Origin: a virus
DNA: 49,700 nucleotides
Reading direction: 5' to 3' (one strand)
Virus record (IMG/VR): IMGVR_UViG_3300048597_000670
Coordinates: 1-49,700 of that record
Below the pieces are notes generated by a model. That model did no database searches, had not been told where the DNA came from, and saw nothing but the letters and a program-made list of their open reading frames with translations. Below are positions 1 through 49,243 of this stretch, in pieces. The stretch's first letter is position 1; each line of letters opens with the position of its first letter. The translations under genes and the position numbers were made by a program.

Positions 1-1119
1 TCAACATTCGTCCTTGTTTCGTGCCCTCGCCGTCATCCGCTTGGACTGGACGATGCGCAGCGATGTAGCGGTGTCGAGCGTGTATGTCGAGGCCTCAGAC
101 AGCGTCTGGTGGCGCAGCAGGCCCTTGATCTCGATGCCCGTGCCGCCGGCGGCCCCAGCCTCCGTGGCCCCCGTGCGGCGCATATCCTGCCATTGGAGGG
201 TGGCGGGCAGGCCCGCGGCCTTCCTGAGCCGCTGAAAGATCTTGTGCCGCGTGGAGGTCACCCAGGGCGTGTTGGCGCCCGGCGGTGCGAACAGGGGCGC
301 ATCCGGCAGCAAGGCGGGCCGGGTCGACAGATACCAGTCGAGCGCGGTCACGACATGGGGCCAGAGCACCATCGGCGGGTGCTCGCCCGCGACTTTGGTG
401 CGGCGGCCCTTGAGGATCGACTTTCCGTCATAATCGCTCCGCGCCAGGCCCCAGACGTCGACCGGCGACTGCGCGATGCAGTCGGTCAGGATCATCGCCG
501 CCCAGAAGCCATATTCCCCGGCGCCGAAGGCGGCGTCGAGAAAGGCGCAGATCTGCTTCAGCGTCCAGGTGTGCGTGCGCTTGGGCGGGCGGCGGTTCTC
601 GACCTCCTTCGCCGGGTCGGTACCCTTGGGAATCAGCCGGCGGCGCGTCGCCCAGGCGAAGATCGCCCGCATCGTGCCCAGCATATGGTAGGCGGCATAG
701 AGGCCGCGCTCCTCGGCCACGCGGTCGCGCCAGGTCTCGAGCACGAGACCGTCCATGTCGCCGATCAGGAATTCGCGATAGTCGTCGCGCAGCGCATCGA
801 GCCAGGGCGCGTAATCGTCGCGCGTGCGGGGCTTGAGGCCGAACCAATGGACGCTGGCGCGGTATTCCTTGACGAGGAAGCCGATCGTGCCCGGGGCGTC
901 CTGCTCGGCGCGGGCGGAGCGGCCTAGCCGCAGCTCGTCGGCTAGGGCGTTGAGGTCGATTGCGCGCTTGAGGATCGCCGGCGTTGCGATCTTTTCGGGC
1001 GTCTCGCCGAGGGCTTCGGCGACGAGGCCGAAAGCCGCCACATGGGCGCTCGGGATCCAGTACCAGCCCCAGCCGCGTTTGAGCGGCCGCGACCTAAGGT
1101 GTCTGACCTTGTCGGCCAT
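1..1119 (-). CDS. int: Tyrosine-family site-specific integrase
   Basis: Integrase of 372 residues that should catalyse integration and, with an excisionase, excision of the prophage. The N-terminal half (about 80-170) looks like the core-binding SAM-like domain and about 185-360 like the catalytic domain. Visible catalytic elements are a candidate Lys near 242, QDMRRT at 311-316 (box II Arg), RH at 336-337 and the nucleophile Tyr346 nine residues after His337. Two positions look degenerate: the box I Arg is replaced by Ser (AQSP, about 216-219) and the usual His before the box II Arg is Gln311. The stop codon lies at the first base of the window. The start overlaps the upstream excisionase-like gene. 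The fold is clear; whether it is active is less certain. Confidence 0.9.
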   Translation of the reverse strand: MADKVRHLRSRPLKRGWGWYWIPSAHVAAFGLVAEALGETPEKIATPAILKRAIDLNALADELRLGRSARAEQDAPGTIGFLVKEYRASVHWFGLKPRTRDDYAPWLDALRDDYREFLIGDMDGLVLETWRDRVAEERGLYAAYHMLGTMRAIFAWATRRRLIPKGTDPAKEVENRRPPKRTHTWTLKQICAFLDAAFGAGEYGFWAAMILTDCIAQSPVDVWGLARSDYDGKSILKGRRTKVAGEHPPMVLWPHVVTALDWYLSTRPALLPDAPLFAPPGANTPWVTSTRHKIFQRLRKAAGLPATLQWQDMRRTGATEAGAAGGTGIEIKGLLRHQTLSEASTYTLDTATSLRIVQSKRMTARARNKDEC

Positions 1120-1372
1120 ATTTTGCGCGCTCCATGATCAGCTGATGGTTCACGGAGGGGTAATGCACGTCAACCCCGAAGGATTTGCGGACCCAGGCCT
1201 CGACCGCCTCGCGCAGATAGAGCCCGTCATGCCGCGGCCGGGGGAAGGTCGGGTGCAGCTTGATCAGCTTCGCAGGCGTGAACGAGGCCGGGCTCTGGCG
1301 GAAATAATCGCGCGCGACTTCGGCGTGGCGCAGCACGAAGGGATCGCGGGCGATCGCGGCGGGGCGGCTCAT
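1094..1372 (-). CDS. Small excisionase/AlpA-like DNA-binding protein
   Basis: A 92-residue protein starting MSRPAAIARD, encoded directly upstream of the integrase and overlapping its start by 26 bases. The centre has the pattern FPRPRHDGLYLREAVEAW, which resembles the wing and second helix of AlpA/Xis-type proteins. That resemblance and its place beside int suggest a recombination directionality factor. The start at 1372 is chosen because it forms an ATGA overlap with the small upstream gene; a longer reading from 1453 would cover that gene. Function is inferred from weak similarity and position. Confidence 0.6.
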   Translation of the reverse strand: MSRPAAIARDPFVLRHAEVARDYFRQSPASFTPAKLIKLHPTFPRPRHDGLYLREAVEAWVRKSFGVDVHYPSVNHQLIMERAKYGRQGQTP

Positions 1373-1461
1373 CGCACCAGCCCCCAGAGGTTCACGCCGC
1401 AGGAGACGAGCGCCGCCGCGACGAAAACCATTATCAGGATGCGTTCGCCCCATTTATTCAT
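1369..1461 (-). CDS. Putative 30-residue single-span membrane peptide
   Basis: A 30-codon reading frame, MNKWGERILI then a hydrophobic stretch (MVFVAAALVSCG) and a short tail ending GLVR. It overlaps both neighbours by four bases (ATGA at each end), which suggests a real, translationally coupled gene. One transmembrane helix is predicted by eye at residues 8-21. The VSCG could act as a lipobox, but it sits late in such a short peptide. Function unknown. Confidence 0.45.
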   Translation of the reverse strand: MNKWGERILIMVFVAAALVSCGVNLWGLVR

Positions 1462-1772
1462 CCGGGCGGCTTCCTCAAGGCACGGGCAATGGCGTCTTTC
1501 AGTTCGGGGCGAACGGACAATTCGGCGCCGGGGACAACGCCGGGCCGGTTCAGCAACGGGAGACAGCGCGCCGCGAAGGCGTAGATCGCCTCTTCCGGGT
1601 TCATCTGCTGGGCCGCGAAGCCCGCCACGACCTGAGCCAGCGCCTGTTGCACCGGCTCGTTCAGGATCATCACCTCGCCGCTCGGCGCGCGGTTCCAGGC
1701 GAAGGCATTGGTCAGCAGGGCCATGATATGGGCCTGCAGGATCTGGGCGCTGTGGTCGGTCATGGCGGTCAT
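1458..1772 (-). CDS. Hypothetical protein, 104 residues
   Basis: Not recognised. A soluble, mostly helical-looking protein with an Ala-rich middle (about 40-75) and a basic C-terminus. It begins MTAMTDHSAQ, so the start could be the Met at 1772 or the one three codons later at 1763; neither has a strong Shine-Dalgarno. The stop overlaps the next small gene (ATGA). It lies in the left-arm minus-strand operon and is probably accessory or regulatory. Confidence 0.55.
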   Translation of the reverse strand: MTAMTDHSAQILQAHIMALLTNAFAWNRAPSGEVMILNEPVQQALAQVVAGFAAQQMNPEEAIYAFAARCLPLLNRPGVVPGAELSVRPELKDAIARALRKPPG

Positions 1773-1793
1773 CGCTGGGTCGATGCGCCGATC

Positions 1794-2408
1794 CTAGCCG
1801 TTCGCCGCAGCGTTGCGAGCCTTGCGCTGAGCGGCTGCCTGGCGCGCTGCGGCGAGCTTGGGCGGCGCGTCCGCGGCGTCGTCCTCGAGGCCCCAGAGCA
1901 CGATCGTCATCTGCTTGTGGCCGATATCGAGCGGAATGTTTTCCGGCGCAAACTCGCGGCCGACGGTGTGGAACTGCAACTCGATCTCGTCGTCGAGAGC
2001 GTCCTCATAGGCCTTCATCTGGGCGTCGCGTGCATCCATGACCGGCTTGTCGGTCTCAAACAGCGCCTTCACCTCGGCGGCCCAGGCCTTGCGGCCCTCC
2101 TCGGTGAAGACGTACTGGCTCGTCTGCTTGCCGGTGGCCGGGTCGGTGACGGGCGCGGTCGTCTTGGGCTGCCCGATGGAATCACGCTCCGCGTGCTTCT
2201 TGCCGATCTCCTTGAGCCGCGCGATGTGGGCTTCGTATTCCTTCGGCGGCTTCTTCATCCGCTCCAGCGTCTTCGCCTCGGCCAGCAGGATGGCGATGTT
2301 GCGGAAGGTCGTGTGCGCCAGGCGCGATGGGCACCAGCCGGGACGCAGGTTTTCGGCGATGGGTGCGAGGTCGACGAGTTCGCGATTGGTAAGGGTGACG
2401 GTCTTCAT
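1794..2408 (-). CDS. Conserved phage protein of the 'LTNRELV' type, unknown function
   Basis: A 204-residue protein. It opens MKTVTLTNRELVDLAP followed by an arginine/leucine-rich helix. Many phage proteins of about 200 residues begin this way (an opening such as LTNxELV, then a kxAxkLARN-like helix); from memory they have no established activity. A long charged helix (about 55-90) and a Glu/Asp-rich C-terminal half follow, ending in an Ala/Arg tail. The start at 2408 is preceded by AAGGA at good spacing, which rules out the longer reading from 2807 that would bury the Acb2-like gene. It is the direct downstream neighbour of that gene in the same operon. Confidence 0.65.
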   Translation of the reverse strand: MKTVTLTNRELVDLAPIAENLRPGWCPSRLAHTTFRNIAILLAEAKTLERMKKPPKEYEAHIARLKEIGKKHAERDSIGQPKTTAPVTDPATGKQTSQYVFTEEGRKAWAAEVKALFETDKPVMDARDAQMKAYEDALDDEIELQFHTVGREFAPENIPLDIGHKQMTIVLWGLEDDAADAPPKLAAARQAAAQRKARNAAANG

Positions 2409-2431
2409 GGGCGCGGTCCTTTGTGTGGAGG

Positions 2432-2719
2432 TCAGTCTTCGCCGGCCAGCTCGGCGCCGGGGTGGAGCGCCCGTCGCGCGGGGATGAACGTCGAGACGAG
2501 GCGCTCGGGCTTCGCGATCGCGCGGACCGCGTGCATGAACGCGTCCTCGCCGTGCGTGGCGGCCAAGGCCACCTGGCGTTGATCGATGCCCGGAACGGTC
2601 TTCAGGAAGTCGATGAGTCCGTTGAACTGCTTCTCCTGATGCTTGACGGCATTCATGCCGTCGATCTCTTCCTGCGTCAGGTCGCGATAGCCGCTGATCT
2701 GCTTGTGCTGGTTGTCCAT
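2432..2719 (-). CDS. acb2: Acb2/Tad1-like cyclic-nucleotide sponge (anti-CBASS / anti-Thoeris candidate)
   Basis: A 95-residue protein with the hallmark opening of the Acb2/Tad1 hairpin family: NQHKQISGYRDLTQEEID, then a conserved MN and a helix, and later a TH...FMHAVRAIAKPE segment. Characterised members are small helical-hairpin proteins that oligomerise and sequester signalling nucleotides. Acb2 takes up cyclic di- and trinucleotides of CBASS, Tad1 the cADPR-type signal of Thoeris. Length matches Acb2 (about 95 residues). The start at 2719 has GGAG six bases upstream, two bases after the previous stop. Family assignment is from recognisable motif pattern; ligand choice cannot be read from the sequence. 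Confidence 0.82.
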   Translation of the reverse strand: MDNQHKQISGYRDLTQEEIDGMNAVKHQEKQFNGLIDFLKTVPGIDQRQVALAATHGEDAFMHAVRAIAKPERLVSTFIPARRALHPGAELAGED

Positions 2720-2721
2720 GG

Positions 2722-3396
2722 TCACTCCGCTGCGATGATGGCGGCGCCCTGATTGGCGGCCGCGGGAAGGTAAGGGCCGCCCCATTGATCGGCCATGGCG
2801 TGCGCAATGCCGGGAAAGAAGCGGCTGCGCTCCTTGCTGCGGTTGGCGCTACGCGACATGCGATGAACGCGAGACCACGCTTTGTGCGCAGTGGTGCCGC
2901 GCTCAGGCGGCGTCAGCCGATTGGTCGGCGTCAGCTTCGGGAGGCCCTTGAGGTAGAGGCCGGTAGCCTTGAATTCCGGGTCACCGAACCACCATGGCTG
3001 AACGATCTGCGCGGGCGGCTGATAGCCGGCGATTCGCGCCTTGGCATGCTTGTGCATCACCGGGTTCTCGGCTGCGATGCGGGGAATTTCGGCGTTCCAT
3101 AATGTCGAGAAGAGCGCCGCGCCGGCGTCGAGTTCTGCCCACATCTCAGTGCGGGTCCTGCCGGGTGGGGCGGTATGCAGCCAGCGCACGCCGCTATTGC
3201 AGAGGCGCGTGCATGGAGGGTGCGCGACCATCAGCAGATCCCATCCGTCATTCAGAATGTCGCGCACATCGCCTGTGATGTGGCGGTTGCTGCCATCCTC
3301 GGCAGGCAGCAGATCGCAGGACCAGGCATCATGTCCCCGCGCCAGAAAGGCCCGCCGCACGATCCCCGAAAATTCGCAGGCGATCAGGATGCGCAT
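2722..3396 (-). CDS. Short C5-cytosine-methyltransferase-like protein (PPC motif)
   Basis: A 224-residue protein with a Rossmann-type start: MRILIACEFSGIVRRAF resembles motif I of C5 methyltransferases, and AHPPCTRLCNSG at about 58-69 resembles the catalytic Pro-Cys motif IV. It is shorter than typical C5 methyltransferases and I see no clear target-recognition domain. It may be a divergent DNA-modifying enzyme or a binding protein derived from one. The start at 3396 overlaps the end of the ASCH gene by 13 bases and leads on to the Acb2-like gene two bases later. Many temperate phages carry this type among accessory genes. Confidence 0.65.
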   Translation of the reverse strand: MRILIACEFSGIVRRAFLARGHDAWSCDLLPAEDGSNRHITGDVRDILNDGWDLLMVAHPPCTRLCNSGVRWLHTAPPGRTRTEMWAELDAGAALFSTLWNAEIPRIAAENPVMHKHAKARIAGYQPPAQIVQPWWFGDPEFKATGLYLKGLPKLTPTNRLTPPERGTTAHKAWSRVHRMSRSANRSKERSRFFPGIAHAMADQWGGPYLPAAANQGAAIIAAE

Positions 3397-3884
3397 GTGG
3401 CCTCGTGCTGGGGGAGGTCGCGGGGCCAGTCCCAAAAGCCCTGCGCGCCGCGGCACGGCACGGCCGGGTCGAAATCGCGCCAGTCGGTCAGGGGCCAGCC
3501 ATAGTTGGCGTGCTCGTCGCGGTCGGAATCGTTGATGCCGTCGCCGGTTTGCGGCATCCCGGGGAGGCGCGGCGTCTTCGTGGGTTCACCGAGAATCGCA
3601 GTCCCGAGTCCGTGGCCAAGGGCGAGACCAATCTCGTCGCGCAGGACGCGCTCGAGCATGGGCAGCGCGATGTCTCGCGTAAGCCCGGTCTGCCAGTGAT
3701 TTTCCGAATGCAGCTGCGCGAGGATTCCCTTCACCTCAGCCTTGCGCACCGGCCGGACTCCGGCATGGATGACGATGCGCTGCCCGCGCAGGCTGCGCGG
3801 CGCAGGCCAGCCTCTGAACTCGTAGGGCTTCGCGCCGATTGCAATCAGCGAGGCCCATGGCTGCCAGATGGTGAGGGCCTTCAT
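3384..3884 (-). CDS. ASCH domain protein
   Basis: A 166-residue protein. The N-terminus MKALTIWQPWASLIAIGAK followed by YEFRGWPAP is the classical ASCH opening (tIwqPWAslI..G.K..E.R.w). ASCH domains have a PUA-like beta-barrel fold thought to bind RNA or modified nucleotides. The centre runs through IVIHAGVRP and a GLGTAILGE strand typical of the barrel. It overlaps the DUF5131 gene upstream by four bases (ATGA) and the methyltransferase-like gene downstream. Precise substrate unknown. Confidence 0.8.
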   Translation of the reverse strand: MKALTIWQPWASLIAIGAKPYEFRGWPAPRSLRGQRIVIHAGVRPVRKAEVKGILAQLHSENHWQTGLTRDIALPMLERVLRDEIGLALGHGLGTAILGEPTKTPRLPGMPQTGDGINDSDRDEHANYGWPLTDWRDFDPAVPCRGAQGFWDWPRDLPQHEATCAS

Positions 3885-4969
3885 GCCGTCACCGGCATGC
3901 CGTCATGGATGACACCGTCGATCGTGCGCCCAGCTTTCTTTTTCCCAAGGCGCCTGACGAAGGCGGTCGTCTTTTCATTCCAGACTTCGGGCCCGGGAGA
4001 TGAGCCCTCCGGCGAAATGCTCCGTCCTGAGCCGCTCGGGCTCCATTCACCCCACTGCTTGAAAAAGAACGCGGCTCCGGCTGCCGCGCATTGATCGCGC
4101 AGCGAGCGAACCCAATCTGGATGCATGGGTCGCGCGCGCGGCCCGCTTTCACCGCCGACAATAATCCAGTCGAGGAAGAAAGCGGGTGCGGATACCAAGG
4201 ATTGACGCCGCAGCCCGCAGTCAGCACCTGCCGCTTTGGCAGCTGAGTAGCTGTTGAAATCGCCCTTCCACCAACCGCAGACCGGCCACATATATGAATG
4301 AAGATCGACTGGACCGAGCAACGGCTCGGCCGAGACGAATCGCCTCGCGGCGGGAGTCTGGAGGAGTTCGGGAATGCGTGCCGCTGCAGTCTCCTGATTT
4401 TCGGCGCTGACGCCTAGCCAGACATGCGGCAGCGGCCACGGGAAGGGGTTCAAACGACTGAGAGTGTCGCGCGGGTGCTCATCTGGCACGCCGAACCGGC
4501 GCTTCAGAATGCCCGCTGCGATGACCCTGATACGCTCCTCAAGATCGAGCGGCGGTACGAAAGTCGTGAACCAAGCTCGCATCCGTTCTGGCCGTTTCGT
4601 CAGCACCTGGAACGTGTGCTGCGGGCAGAGCGCCATGACGGCGAAGAGGCGGTCGAGCCATTCGTCGGCGACGAAGTCCGCAAAGAGATCAGTCATCGAG
4701 CAGACGAAGATGCGGCGCGGCCTCTTCCAGCCGAGTGGCGCGAGCAAGGCGCGCTCGTCGAGGAATATCTCGATGTCCTTCTCGTGGCCGGGCTTGTAGG
4801 GGAGGCCGGTGCCGCCGGTCGCGCCTGGCTTCACGTTGAGGCGCTCGGCGTAGCAGTTGCGGCAGCCCTCGCTCATGTGCACGCAGTGCCAGCCGGTCTT
4901 GCCGGTGGCCTTGTTACGCGCCCTGATCGGGTTCCAGGTTTCGTCGGTCCATTCGATCGCGGTCGGCAT
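3881..4969 (-). CDS. Phage Gp37/Gp68 family protein (DUF5131)
   Basis: A 362-residue protein of the DUF5131 family, common in phages and mobile elements. It opens IEWTDETWNP and has a cysteine cluster C29-C36-C39 (CVHMSEGCRNCYAE). Later blocks IFVCSMTDLFAD, FQVLTKRPERM and IIVGGESGPRARPMHP are family signatures. The cysteine cluster suggests an iron-sulphur or zinc site. A radical-SAM-like fold has been suggested for the family, but its reaction is not established. The start at 4969 is preferred over the Met at 4987 because GGAGG lies about 11 bases upstream of it. First gene of the left-arm operon. Confidence 0.88.
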   Translation of the reverse strand: MPTAIEWTDETWNPIRARNKATGKTGWHCVHMSEGCRNCYAERLNVKPGATGGTGLPYKPGHEKDIEIFLDERALLAPLGWKRPRRIFVCSMTDLFADFVADEWLDRLFAVMALCPQHTFQVLTKRPERMRAWFTTFVPPLDLEERIRVIAAGILKRRFGVPDEHPRDTLSRLNPFPWPLPHVWLGVSAENQETAAARIPELLQTPAARRFVSAEPLLGPVDLHSYMWPVCGWWKGDFNSYSAAKAAGADCGLRRQSLVSAPAFFLDWIIVGGESGPRARPMHPDWVRSLRDQCAAAGAAFFFKQWGEWSPSGSGRSISPEGSSPGPEVWNEKTTAFVRRLGKKKAGRTIDGVIHDGMPVTA

Positions 4970-5028
4970 CAGGAGGCGAGCCTCCATGTCGCATTGCGGG
5001 AGGTGTCGGCATCGAGTGGACTCGCGCG

Positions 5029-45972: not shown

Positions 45973-47886
45973 GTGGCAAACGAGAGAATCACAGAGAATC
46001 TCGTTCGCGATAAGCTGCGAAACCACGGGTGCTACTCTCCGCTAAACAACGTCCGCGTTGAAGAGCAAAAAAGCACAATAGAGCAAGTTCGGCGGGCCTT
46101 GGCGGCGGCGAGCAAAGCCGGTGGCGGTGGGGGTGGTTCCCCTGAGTTTATCGTCACCAATCCCGATCAAGCCGACTTCGTCCTAATTATCGAATGCAAG
46201 GCGAACGCAAAGGACCACGCATCACCAGCCTCGTCAGTCATGCTGACCGCACCCGCCGATGAAAGTGCGGGCGACCATGCCAAGCGGGTGGTGCGCTTCG
46301 CTGTCGATGGTGTGCTTCATTACGCCCAGCGTCTCGCCAAAGAGTTCAATGTAATTGCGGTCGCAGTAAGCGGGCAGAGTAACGATGGTCTGCAGATTTC
46401 CACCTATTTGCACACTCGTGGAAGCCCGATGGCGAAGCCACTAATGACAAAGGATGGCGCGTTTATTTCGGATATTATTCCGTGGTCTGATTATATCGGT
46501 CACGCAATCTATGACCCGGCTGTACAAGCCGTCCGCCTAACCGATCTCATGGCGTTCTCGCGAGAGCTGCATGACTTTATGCGCGATGATGTAAAGGCCA
46601 GCGAGAATGAAAAACCCTTGTTTGTCAGTGGCACCCTAATCGCGCTGAGAAACGCTGTCTTTGCCAAGACATTCAGTGATCATTCTCCGAGTGATCTGCC
46701 GTCAGAATGGTTGCGCGTCATCAACTTAGAATTGAGAAAGGCCGAGATCCCTAACTCAAAGCGAGACACAATAGCGCTCCCCTATTCCAGTATTGCAAGC
46801 CATCCGGAGATTGCGAAGCCTCACAAAAAGTATCCGAAGGGCGTATTGCACGAACTCATTCGGCGTTTGAATGAAAAAGTATGGCCTTTTATTAGTGTTT
46901 ACCACGATTTCGATATCGTCGGGCAGTTCTATGGAGAGTTTCTTAAATATACGGGTGGGGACAAGAAAGCCCTGGGGATCGTGCTCACTCCGCGCCACGT
47001 CACAGATCTGTGCGCGCGACTGGCGAACGTAAACAAGAACAGCAAGGTGCTCGACATATGCGCCGGGACGGGCGGATTTCTTATTTCCGCAATGCACCAG
47101 ATGTTTCGGTCGGCGGTGACAGAAAAAGAAAAATCGCGAATAAAGAGTGAGGCGCTTGTCGGGGTTGAGCAGCAGCCCAACATGTTCGCGCTGGCCGCGA
47201 GCAACATGATGTTGCGCGGCGATGGGAAAGCGAACCTACATCAGTCGTCGTGTTTCGATGAAGCGGTCACGGCCGCTATCAAGAATCACCGCTGCGACGT
47301 GGGATTGCTTAACCCACCATATTCGCAGGGCGATGAAGATCTTCACGAGCTTTACTTTGTAAAGCATATGCTTGAGTGCCTGAGGAAGAACGGCACCGGC
47401 ATTGCGGTTGTTCCGATGAGCTGCGCGATCTCGCCGCACAAGGCGAGGGCAGAGCTTTTAAGGCATCACACACTTGAAGCCGTGATGTCGCTTCCGGACC
47501 TGCTGTTTGCGCCGGTTGGCGTCATAGCGTGTTTGATGGTTTTCACCGCCAAAATCCCCCACGAGACGAGCGGCAAAAAAACGTGGTTTGGCTACTGGAA
47601 GGATGACAGCTTCGTCAAAACGAAGCATCTCGGCCGAGTTGATCTAGCGGGCAGATGGCCGGCGATCCGAGAACGGTGGGTCGATACCTTCCGCAATCGC
47701 GAGGTTGTGCCCGGAGAGGCCATTCTTCAGCGAGTAACGGCTGACGATGAATGGTGTGCGGAAGCCTACATGGAGACGGACTATAGCACCCTAAGTTCCG
47801 CCGACTTTGAGAGCGAGATCAAGAAGTACGTAGCATTCAAAATACTTCAAAGCGAAGGGCGGGGCGATGAAAACGATCCCTCTTAA
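45973..47886 (+). CDS. BcgI-like type IIB nuclease-methylase (A/RM subunit)
   Basis: A 637-residue protein; start GTG 45973. The N-terminal domain holds a PD-(D/E)xK-type nuclease site: Asp68 and E74-x-K76 (ADFVLIIECKAN). The second half is an N6-adenine methyltransferase of the gamma class with motif I LDICAGTGGF (about 360-369) and motif IV NPPY (about 447-450). An NPPY enzyme fused to a nuclease and paired with a separate specificity gene is the architecture of BcgI, whose A subunit is about the same size. A Gly-rich run near 51-55 is a linker. Local GC is clearly below the rest of the window, with codons like AAA and TTA, so the cassette was probably acquired separately. Confidence 0.82.
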   Translation: MANERITENLVRDKLRNHGCYSPLNNVRVEEQKSTIEQVRRALAAASKAGGGGGGSPEFIVTNPDQADFVLIIECKANAKDHASPASSVMLTAPADESAGDHAKRVVRFAVDGVLHYAQRLAKEFNVIAVAVSGQSNDGLQISTYLHTRGSPMAKPLMTKDGAFISDIIPWSDYIGHAIYDPAVQAVRLTDLMAFSRELHDFMRDDVKASENEKPLFVSGTLIALRNAVFAKTFSDHSPSDLPSEWLRVINLELRKAEIPNSKRDTIALPYSSIASHPEIAKPHKKYPKGVLHELIRRLNEKVWPFISVYHDFDIVGQFYGEFLKYTGGDKKALGIVLTPRHVTDLCARLANVNKNSKVLDICAGTGGFLISAMHQMFRSAVTEKEKSRIKSEALVGVEQQPNMFALAASNMMLRGDGKANLHQSSCFDEAVTAAIKNHRCDVGLLNPPYSQGDEDLHELYFVKHMLECLRKNGTGIAVVPMSCAISPHKARAELLRHHTLEAVMSLPDLLFAPVGVIACLMVFTAKIPHETSGKKTWFGYWKDDSFVKTKHLGRVDLAGRWPAIRERWVDTFRNREVVPGEAILQRVTADDEWCAEAYMETDYSTLSSADFESEIKKYVAFKILQSEGRGDENDPS

Positions 47887-48967
47887 TCGCATGTTCGATG
47901 TCGAATACGGCAACAAATTTGACCTCAATAAGATGGACATCGCGAGCAAATCCGAAGGCGGAATAAATTTCGTCAACCGCTCGTCGCGGAATTGCGGCGT
48001 GAGCGCTACCGTTGCTCCGGTAACTGGCATTCCGCCCTATGAGGCTGGAAACATAACCGTTTCGCTTGGCGGCAGTAAGCTGCTGTCCTCGTTCGTTCAG
48101 CCCGAGCGATTTTATACGGGGCAGAACGTCGCGATCTTGAAGCCGAAAACGGCCATGACATTCTCGGAGAAGTTATTTGTCTGCCTATGCATTCGTCACA
48201 ACCGATTCCGCTATTCGGCGTTTGGGCGCGAAGCCAACCGCACACTACGCACTTTGCCTGTACCAGACCGCTCTGAATTTCCCGCTTGGCTTAATGATCG
48301 CGACATCAAGAAACTAGAGGCGAAATATGCGAAGTCGCTAATAGAAGCCAACGACCTGACGCTGACACCAGCTTCATGGAAGCATTTCCGTCTCTCGGAT
48401 TTGTTCGACATCCGAAAAGGAAAACGGCTTACAAAAGCGAGCATGGTGCCTGGGCATACCCCATTTATTTCCGCCATCGATTCGAACAACGGCATGCGCC
48501 AGCGCATAAGCGCGGCACCCTTGCACCCCGCAAACGTTCTTACCGTCAATTACAATGGCAACGGAGTTGCCGAAGCGTTTTATCAGCCAGAGCCGTTCTT
48601 CGCTTCCGATGACGTGCACGTCCTCTACCCGAATTTTAATCTTGATCCGGCCATCGCGCTGTTTCTCTGCGCCATAATCCGTCGTGAAAAGTACCGTTTC
48701 AACTATGGTCGGAAATGGAACTTAGATCGCATGAAAGAGTCAGAGGTACGACTGCCCGCCAGCGGCGACGGGGAACCGGACTGGATCTTCATGAGACGGT
48801 ATATACAGAGTAGGAGCTTTTCTTCTCAGTTGTACGAGGATGAGACCGACTCACTTATCGCTAGGCAGCGGCTTATTGAGATCGATGAAGCGCCCGAGAA
48901 GCTGGTTCAAGGCAAACAGCTTGAGGCTCGGTTTGCACGTTTGAGTCGGTCTCGCGTTGCTTCTTAG
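47867..48967 (+). CDS. HsdS-like specificity subunit of the type IIB system (BcgI-B-like)
   Basis: A 366-residue protein overlapping the A-subunit gene by 20 bases. It has two target-recognition-like regions, each opening with the LxxxFDVxxG-type block: RMFDVEYGNKFDLNKM (about 8-23) and LFDIRKGKRLTKASM (about 179-193). Helical spacer regions lie between and after. Two TRDs would define a split recognition site of the kind BcgI cuts on both sides. The protein gives DNA specificity to both methylation and cleavage. GC as low as in the A subunit. Confidence 0.8.
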   Translation: MKTIPLNRMFDVEYGNKFDLNKMDIASKSEGGINFVNRSSRNCGVSATVAPVTGIPPYEAGNITVSLGGSKLLSSFVQPERFYTGQNVAILKPKTAMTFSEKLFVCLCIRHNRFRYSAFGREANRTLRTLPVPDRSEFPAWLNDRDIKKLEAKYAKSLIEANDLTLTPASWKHFRLSDLFDIRKGKRLTKASMVPGHTPFISAIDSNNGMRQRISAAPLHPANVLTVNYNGNGVAEAFYQPEPFFASDDVHVLYPNFNLDPAIALFLCAIIRREKYRFNYGRKWNLDRMKESEVRLPASGDGEPDWIFMRRYIQSRSFSSQLYEDETDSLIARQRLIEIDEAPEKLVQGKQLEARFARLSRSRVAS

Positions 48968-48970
48968 AAG

Positions 48971-49243
48971 ATGGTCTCTCTCTATGGATTCGCATATACA
49001 GAGGCCGCGCTAAAGTACCTTGAAACAAAAGTGCCGACAAAGGTCTGTGCACAAATCAAGAAGCGGATCGATGCGCTAGCATCACGACCTACCCCGCCTG
49101 GCTGTAAGAAGCTGATGGGGATTACGGATGGCAATAACCCGATCTATCGCGTAAGACAGGGTGACTTCAGAATTCTCTATTCTGTTCGGCCCAACATCAT
49201 TGTTATCTTGGACATCGGGAACCGTAAGGATGTTTATCGGTGA
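48971..49243 (+). CDS. RelE/ParE-family toxin
   Basis: A 90-residue protein of the RelE/ParE superfamily, starting three bases after the specificity gene. Core blocks are ALKYLETKVPTKVCAQIKKRID (helix pair), GCKKLMGI, YRVRQGDFRILYSV and VILDIGNRKDVYR, matching the pattern KKLxG...YRxRxGdYRixY. Such proteins are mRNA interferases or gyrase poisons and are normally paired with an antitoxin; no antitoxin-like gene is seen upstream or downstream. The operon arrangement suggests that it is co-expressed with the R-M genes. Confidence 0.8.
   Translation: MVSLYGFAYTEAALKYLETKVPTKVCAQIKKRIDALASRPTPPGCKKLMGITDGNNPIYRVRQGDFRILYSVRPNIIVILDIGNRKDVYR

Follow-up and report, generated by a model that had tools for sequence, protein, structure and literature searches.

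The stretch of DNA analysed here (the window) is a 49.7 kb IMG/VR virus record (IMGVR_UViG_3300048597_000670, positions 1–49,700) whose gene content is that of a temperate tailed phage, with genes for an integrase, a CII-like activator, a primase, a terminase, a portal and a major head protein. On its minus strand lies an acb2-like gene encoding 95 aa (2432–2719, −), which begins with an ATG at 2719, the same Met at which its homologues begin, and ends with a stop codon at 2432–2434. This is exactly the reading frame given in the initial annotation, and both motifs quoted there, NQHKQISGYRDLTQEEIDGMN and THGEDAFMHAVRAIAKPE, are found in the protein. The sequence GGAG is located 5 bases upstream of the ATG, within the end of the preceding methyltransferase gene. 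The profile match delimits an Acb2_Tad1_hairpin domain (PF24729; residues 10–70, 2510–2692, −), and a C-terminal tail (residues 72–95, 2435–2506, −) follows, which is longer than in other Acb2 proteins, is modelled at low pLDDT and has counterparts in most of the clade only up to about residue 78.

The upstream neighbors of acb2 include genes encoding a DUF5131 (Gp37/Gp68) protein (3881–4987, −; Pfam and PHROG matches, E 1e-84), an ASCH-domain protein (3384–3884, −; E 7e-4, slightly below the Pfam cut-off, but conserved in a sister phage) and a DNA methyltransferase-like protein (2722–3396, −; phrog_757, E 1.6e-58); thus, all operon partners named beforehand are present. Directly 3′ of acb2 we found a gene for a 204-aa protein (1794–2408, −) with no match in Pfam, PHROG, NCBIfam or phage records, and the series is closed by the integrase gene (1–1119, −; phrog_1, 9e-17). 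From duf5131 through acb2, adjacent genes either overlap or lie 2 bases apart, and 23 bases separate acb2 from the gene that follows it; hence, acb2 looks like a part of a tight leftward operon, positioned between the ASCH gene and the integrase gene at which the operon ends. The DUF5131 protein additionally matches the PADLOC candidate defence clusters PDC-M41B (5e-64) and PDC-M30B (2e-60). Elsewhere in the window, a tRNA-Met (CAT) gene is located within the phage (10062–10137, +), and the right end (45973–49243, +) is likely a phage-borne restriction-modification cassette, with a Type IIG restriction-methyltransferase (PADLOC PDLC03608, 2.6e-101) accompanied by a specificity subunit (47867–48967) and a ParE-like toxin ORF (48971–49243).

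The 95-aa protein matches the Pfam Acb2/Tad1 hairpin profile PF24729 over all of its positions (1–58 of 58) with 67.4 bits, the curated cut-off being 27 (E = 1.2e-18). It also matches phrog_29522 and phrog_717, both PHROGs of unknown function, and shows no match in NCBIfam or PADLOC. Its only convincing sequence relatives with a solved structure are Acb2 (p26) and Vs.4, the Acb2 of phage T4. In an AlphaFold2 monomer model built on a 40-sequence alignment, two long antiparallel helices (residues 16–41 and 47–69, pLDDT about 98 there) follow a short N-terminal segment, no beta domain is present, and the N-terminus and the tail are poorly defined, with a short N-terminal helix in a low-confidence stretch. 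Acb2 and Vs.4 chains occupy ranks 1–8 of the Foldseek search (probability 1.0), every other match having E > 1, and VIA-align superposes the model on 7uq2_A (Z 8.3, rmsd 2.9, 72 residues) and 8h2j_A (Z 8.0, rmsd 2.5, 71 residues), the best unrelated row reaching Z 6.8. The lower rows of both comparisons (Rop, EsxB and others) represent common helical hairpins and were set aside. Since such hairpins are common, the argument rests on sequence and structure together and not on Z alone. Taken jointly, they identify the protein as a genuine Acb2-family member, whose predicted hairpin fold is the same as that of Acb2; the profile search and the (monomer) fold prediction recommended in the initial annotation thus both bore out the proposed family.

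PF24729 spans the hairpins of both Acb2 and Tad1 (Thoeris anti-defence 1), and a Tad1-type sponge acting on the Thoeris signal gcADPR could therefore be considered. Tad1, however, has an N-terminal domain with a four-stranded antiparallel beta-sheet, and protomer loops of this domain help to build the gcADPR pocket (PMC12043709). In the window protein only 15 residues precede the first helix, the model is free of strands and the protein carries the N-terminal NQHKxIxGYRDL sequence of Acb2. As there is no room for the Tad1 sheet domain, inhibition of Thoeris by this protein is not expected and seems unlikely; we consider a Tad1-type sponge highly improbable and did not file the protein under Tad1. 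Accordingly, of the “Acb2/Tad1-like sponge” initially proposed, the Acb2 type is retained on the basis of profile and fold, while the Tad1/Thoeris part is abandoned, the beta-sheet domain being absent.

Within the Acb2 family, the window protein shares with p26 Acb2 (PDB 8h2j/8h2x/8ixz) the hairpin fold and the N-terminus DNQHKxIxGYRDLxQEEIDxMN. It differs in the second helix (ATHGEDAF vs. KTDIQTGM), at the C-terminus (PERLV plus the tail vs. PDSF) and in the hairpin tip, which is ~18 residues shorter; this short form is common to most of the viral homologues found, p26 Acb2 and T4 Vs.4 being longer, and is not specific for any one branch. With T4 Vs.4 (PDB 7uq2) it shares the fold and the Y8 and T68 positions, yet their identity in structural alignments amounts to 26–31%, and F82 of the T4 protein corresponds to Ala69, as in p26 Acb2. 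An alignment of 48 family members with p26 Acb2 and T4 Vs.4 shows that equivalents of four ligand-site residues are all present in the window protein: Tyr11 (codon 2687–2689, −; Y11 in p26 Acb2, Tyr8 in T4 Acb2), Lys26 (2642–2644, −; K26 in Acb2), Arg48 (2576–2578, −; R67 in Acb2) and Thr55 (2555–2557, −; Thr68 in T4 Acb2, T74 in p26 Acb2). We take K26 of Acb2 to be a dinucleotide contact and R67, presumably, to contact cyclic trinucleotides. The Y8A substitution in T4 Acb2 disrupts cyclic dinucleotide binding and Panoptes activation (PMC12657218, PMC12657230) and T68M reduces binding (PMC12657230), which, by analogy, lends support to the view that positions Y11 and T55 matter; F82 of T4 Acb2 stacks on the bound dinucleotide (PMC12657218). 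In the clade of the window protein, R48 and T55 are found in all 14 members, K26 in 13/14 and Y11 in 12/14, and all four are kept in most other members too.

Relatives of the protein were detected at 62 viral loci, in 218 phage records (tblastn) and in 38 plasmid records, and Sphingomonas and Erythrobacter genomes contribute seven further loci, found with the pattern AF.AVRA. Together with the profile E value, the viral and phage matches put the observation far beyond what chance would give. As helical hairpins are widespread and unrelated chains score Z values of 6 to 7, the gene might be a degenerate or non-functional remnant, or encode a small helical protein with another role. This appears improbable to us in view of the intact reading frame, the close packing in the operon, the conserved ligand residues and the many different phages carrying the gene. 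Instead, the gene very probably encodes an Acb2-family sponge that, presumably as a hexamer, would sequester cyclic di- and probably trinucleotides and thereby keep CBASS effectors off. By homology with Acb2, the protein would assemble into the homo-hexamer, use Y11 and K26 to bind cyclic dinucleotides in the pockets formed where protomers meet head to head, and probably bind cyclic trinucleotides at the trimer interfaces via R48 and perhaps T55. The nucleotides would be held without cleavage, so that the level of free signal would be lowered during infection or induction, CBASS effectors would be kept off and the phage protected; the cA3-activated nucleases common to type III CRISPR might be kept off as well. 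Thoeris signals (gcADPR) are not expected among its ligands.

In a tree of 55 proteins, which rests on few columns and has weak inner forks, the window protein falls into a branch of 14 (support 96/95, recovered in 95% of bootstrap trees), whose members come from uncultivated viruses and from genomes of Sphingomonas and Erythrobacter. The branch differs from most other members at E29, N33, D37, G57, E58, A60 and R73, and in the tail, where PxR replaces PTTF; in the second helix it has GEDAF vs. LQKGF elsewhere (LQ.G to GE.A), and Q/N/H replaces W at position 49 (p26 W68) and A/Q replaces K at position 54 (K73). The changes in the second helix and the tail may lie near the ligand sites and could thereby alter the range of ligands or make binding weak. 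A stronger version of this idea is that the helix face and tail are tuned to signals other than those of characterised Acb2, e.g., to trinucleotides only or to another cyclic nucleotide of Alphaproteobacteria. The clade-fixed residues and the well-supported split that sets this clade apart speak for such a shift in specificity. Still, almost every member retains Y11, K26, R48 and T55, and the fixed pattern is partly ascertained, since the genome hits were retrieved with AF.AVRA; for these reasons we regard the shift as rather unlikely. Somewhat more speculative again is the notion that the Sphingomonas/Erythrobacter branch has adapted the second helix and the C-terminal tail to different signal nucleotides, possibly avoiding Panoptes-type decoys. 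An Acb2-type sponge remains our preferred reading, and the window protein is a useful addition to the known Acb2 family; it does not define a novel type of system. Through it, this family of anti-CBASS sponges gains a well-supported branch from Sphingomonas and its relatives, represented in both phages and genomes. Natural changes in this branch fall within the ligand-binding half of the hairpin, and its homologues form a set ready for mapping the determinants of ligand range in nucleotide sponges. Panoptes is triggered by Acb2 (PMC12657218); therefore, carriage of the gene would be expected to come at a cost on hosts with Panoptes.

The gene is accessory. A sister phage (IMGVR_UViG_3300048597_000630), whose terminase and ASCH gene are 97% and 86% identical to those of the window phage, has no PF24729 match and carries different genes from the ASCH gene to the end of the record. 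There, genes for 190-, 255- and 124-aa proteins, plus a terminal one for 429 aa, replace the duf5131, methyltransferase and acb2 genes, three small genes and the integrase gene of the window (1–5000), with the ASCH gene kept. With the same ASCH gene, no PF24729 match and other genes from there to the end of the record, the locus evidently exchanges accessory genes, which is what one would expect of an anti-defence position. No neighbor from the window recurs beside acb2 among 69 related loci, except for a methyltransferase-like gene at one of them (L063); the neighbors therefore say little on function, and operon context was dropped as a functional clue. Nor is the acb2 neighborhood fixed within the clade: as judged from ORFs read by eye, with no profile, the gene adjoins apparent portal/head genes in L005, L006 and L068, lies in the tail region in L069 and L070, and has an integrase-like gene next to it in L064 and L066.

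Co-occurrence of CBASS was likewise dropped as support. CD-NTase matches were obtained in one of the seven genomes carrying clade members (PF21654 above the cut-off, PF18144 below it), so the searches of these genomes, too few to conclude from, do not show co-occurring CBASS as a rule. The family itself is rare in the order to which G001 (the genome that carries L064) belongs, as PF24729 matches occur in 7 of 298 sampled genomes: G001, one with a typical Acb2 (L076) and five (L071–L073, L075, L077) in which the proteins are devoid of the NQHK..GYRDL start. Two further loci deserve mention. The clade member L036 (5001–5261) has a diverged N-terminus with Y11 and K26 lost and R48 and T55 kept, a residue pattern possibly indicative of a trinucleotide-only sponge. 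In L063 (5001–5411), with the methyltransferase-like gene nearby, the first 20 residues are Acb2-like (MDNQHKQIKGYRDLSQDEIE) and fused to an unrelated 117-residue sequence.
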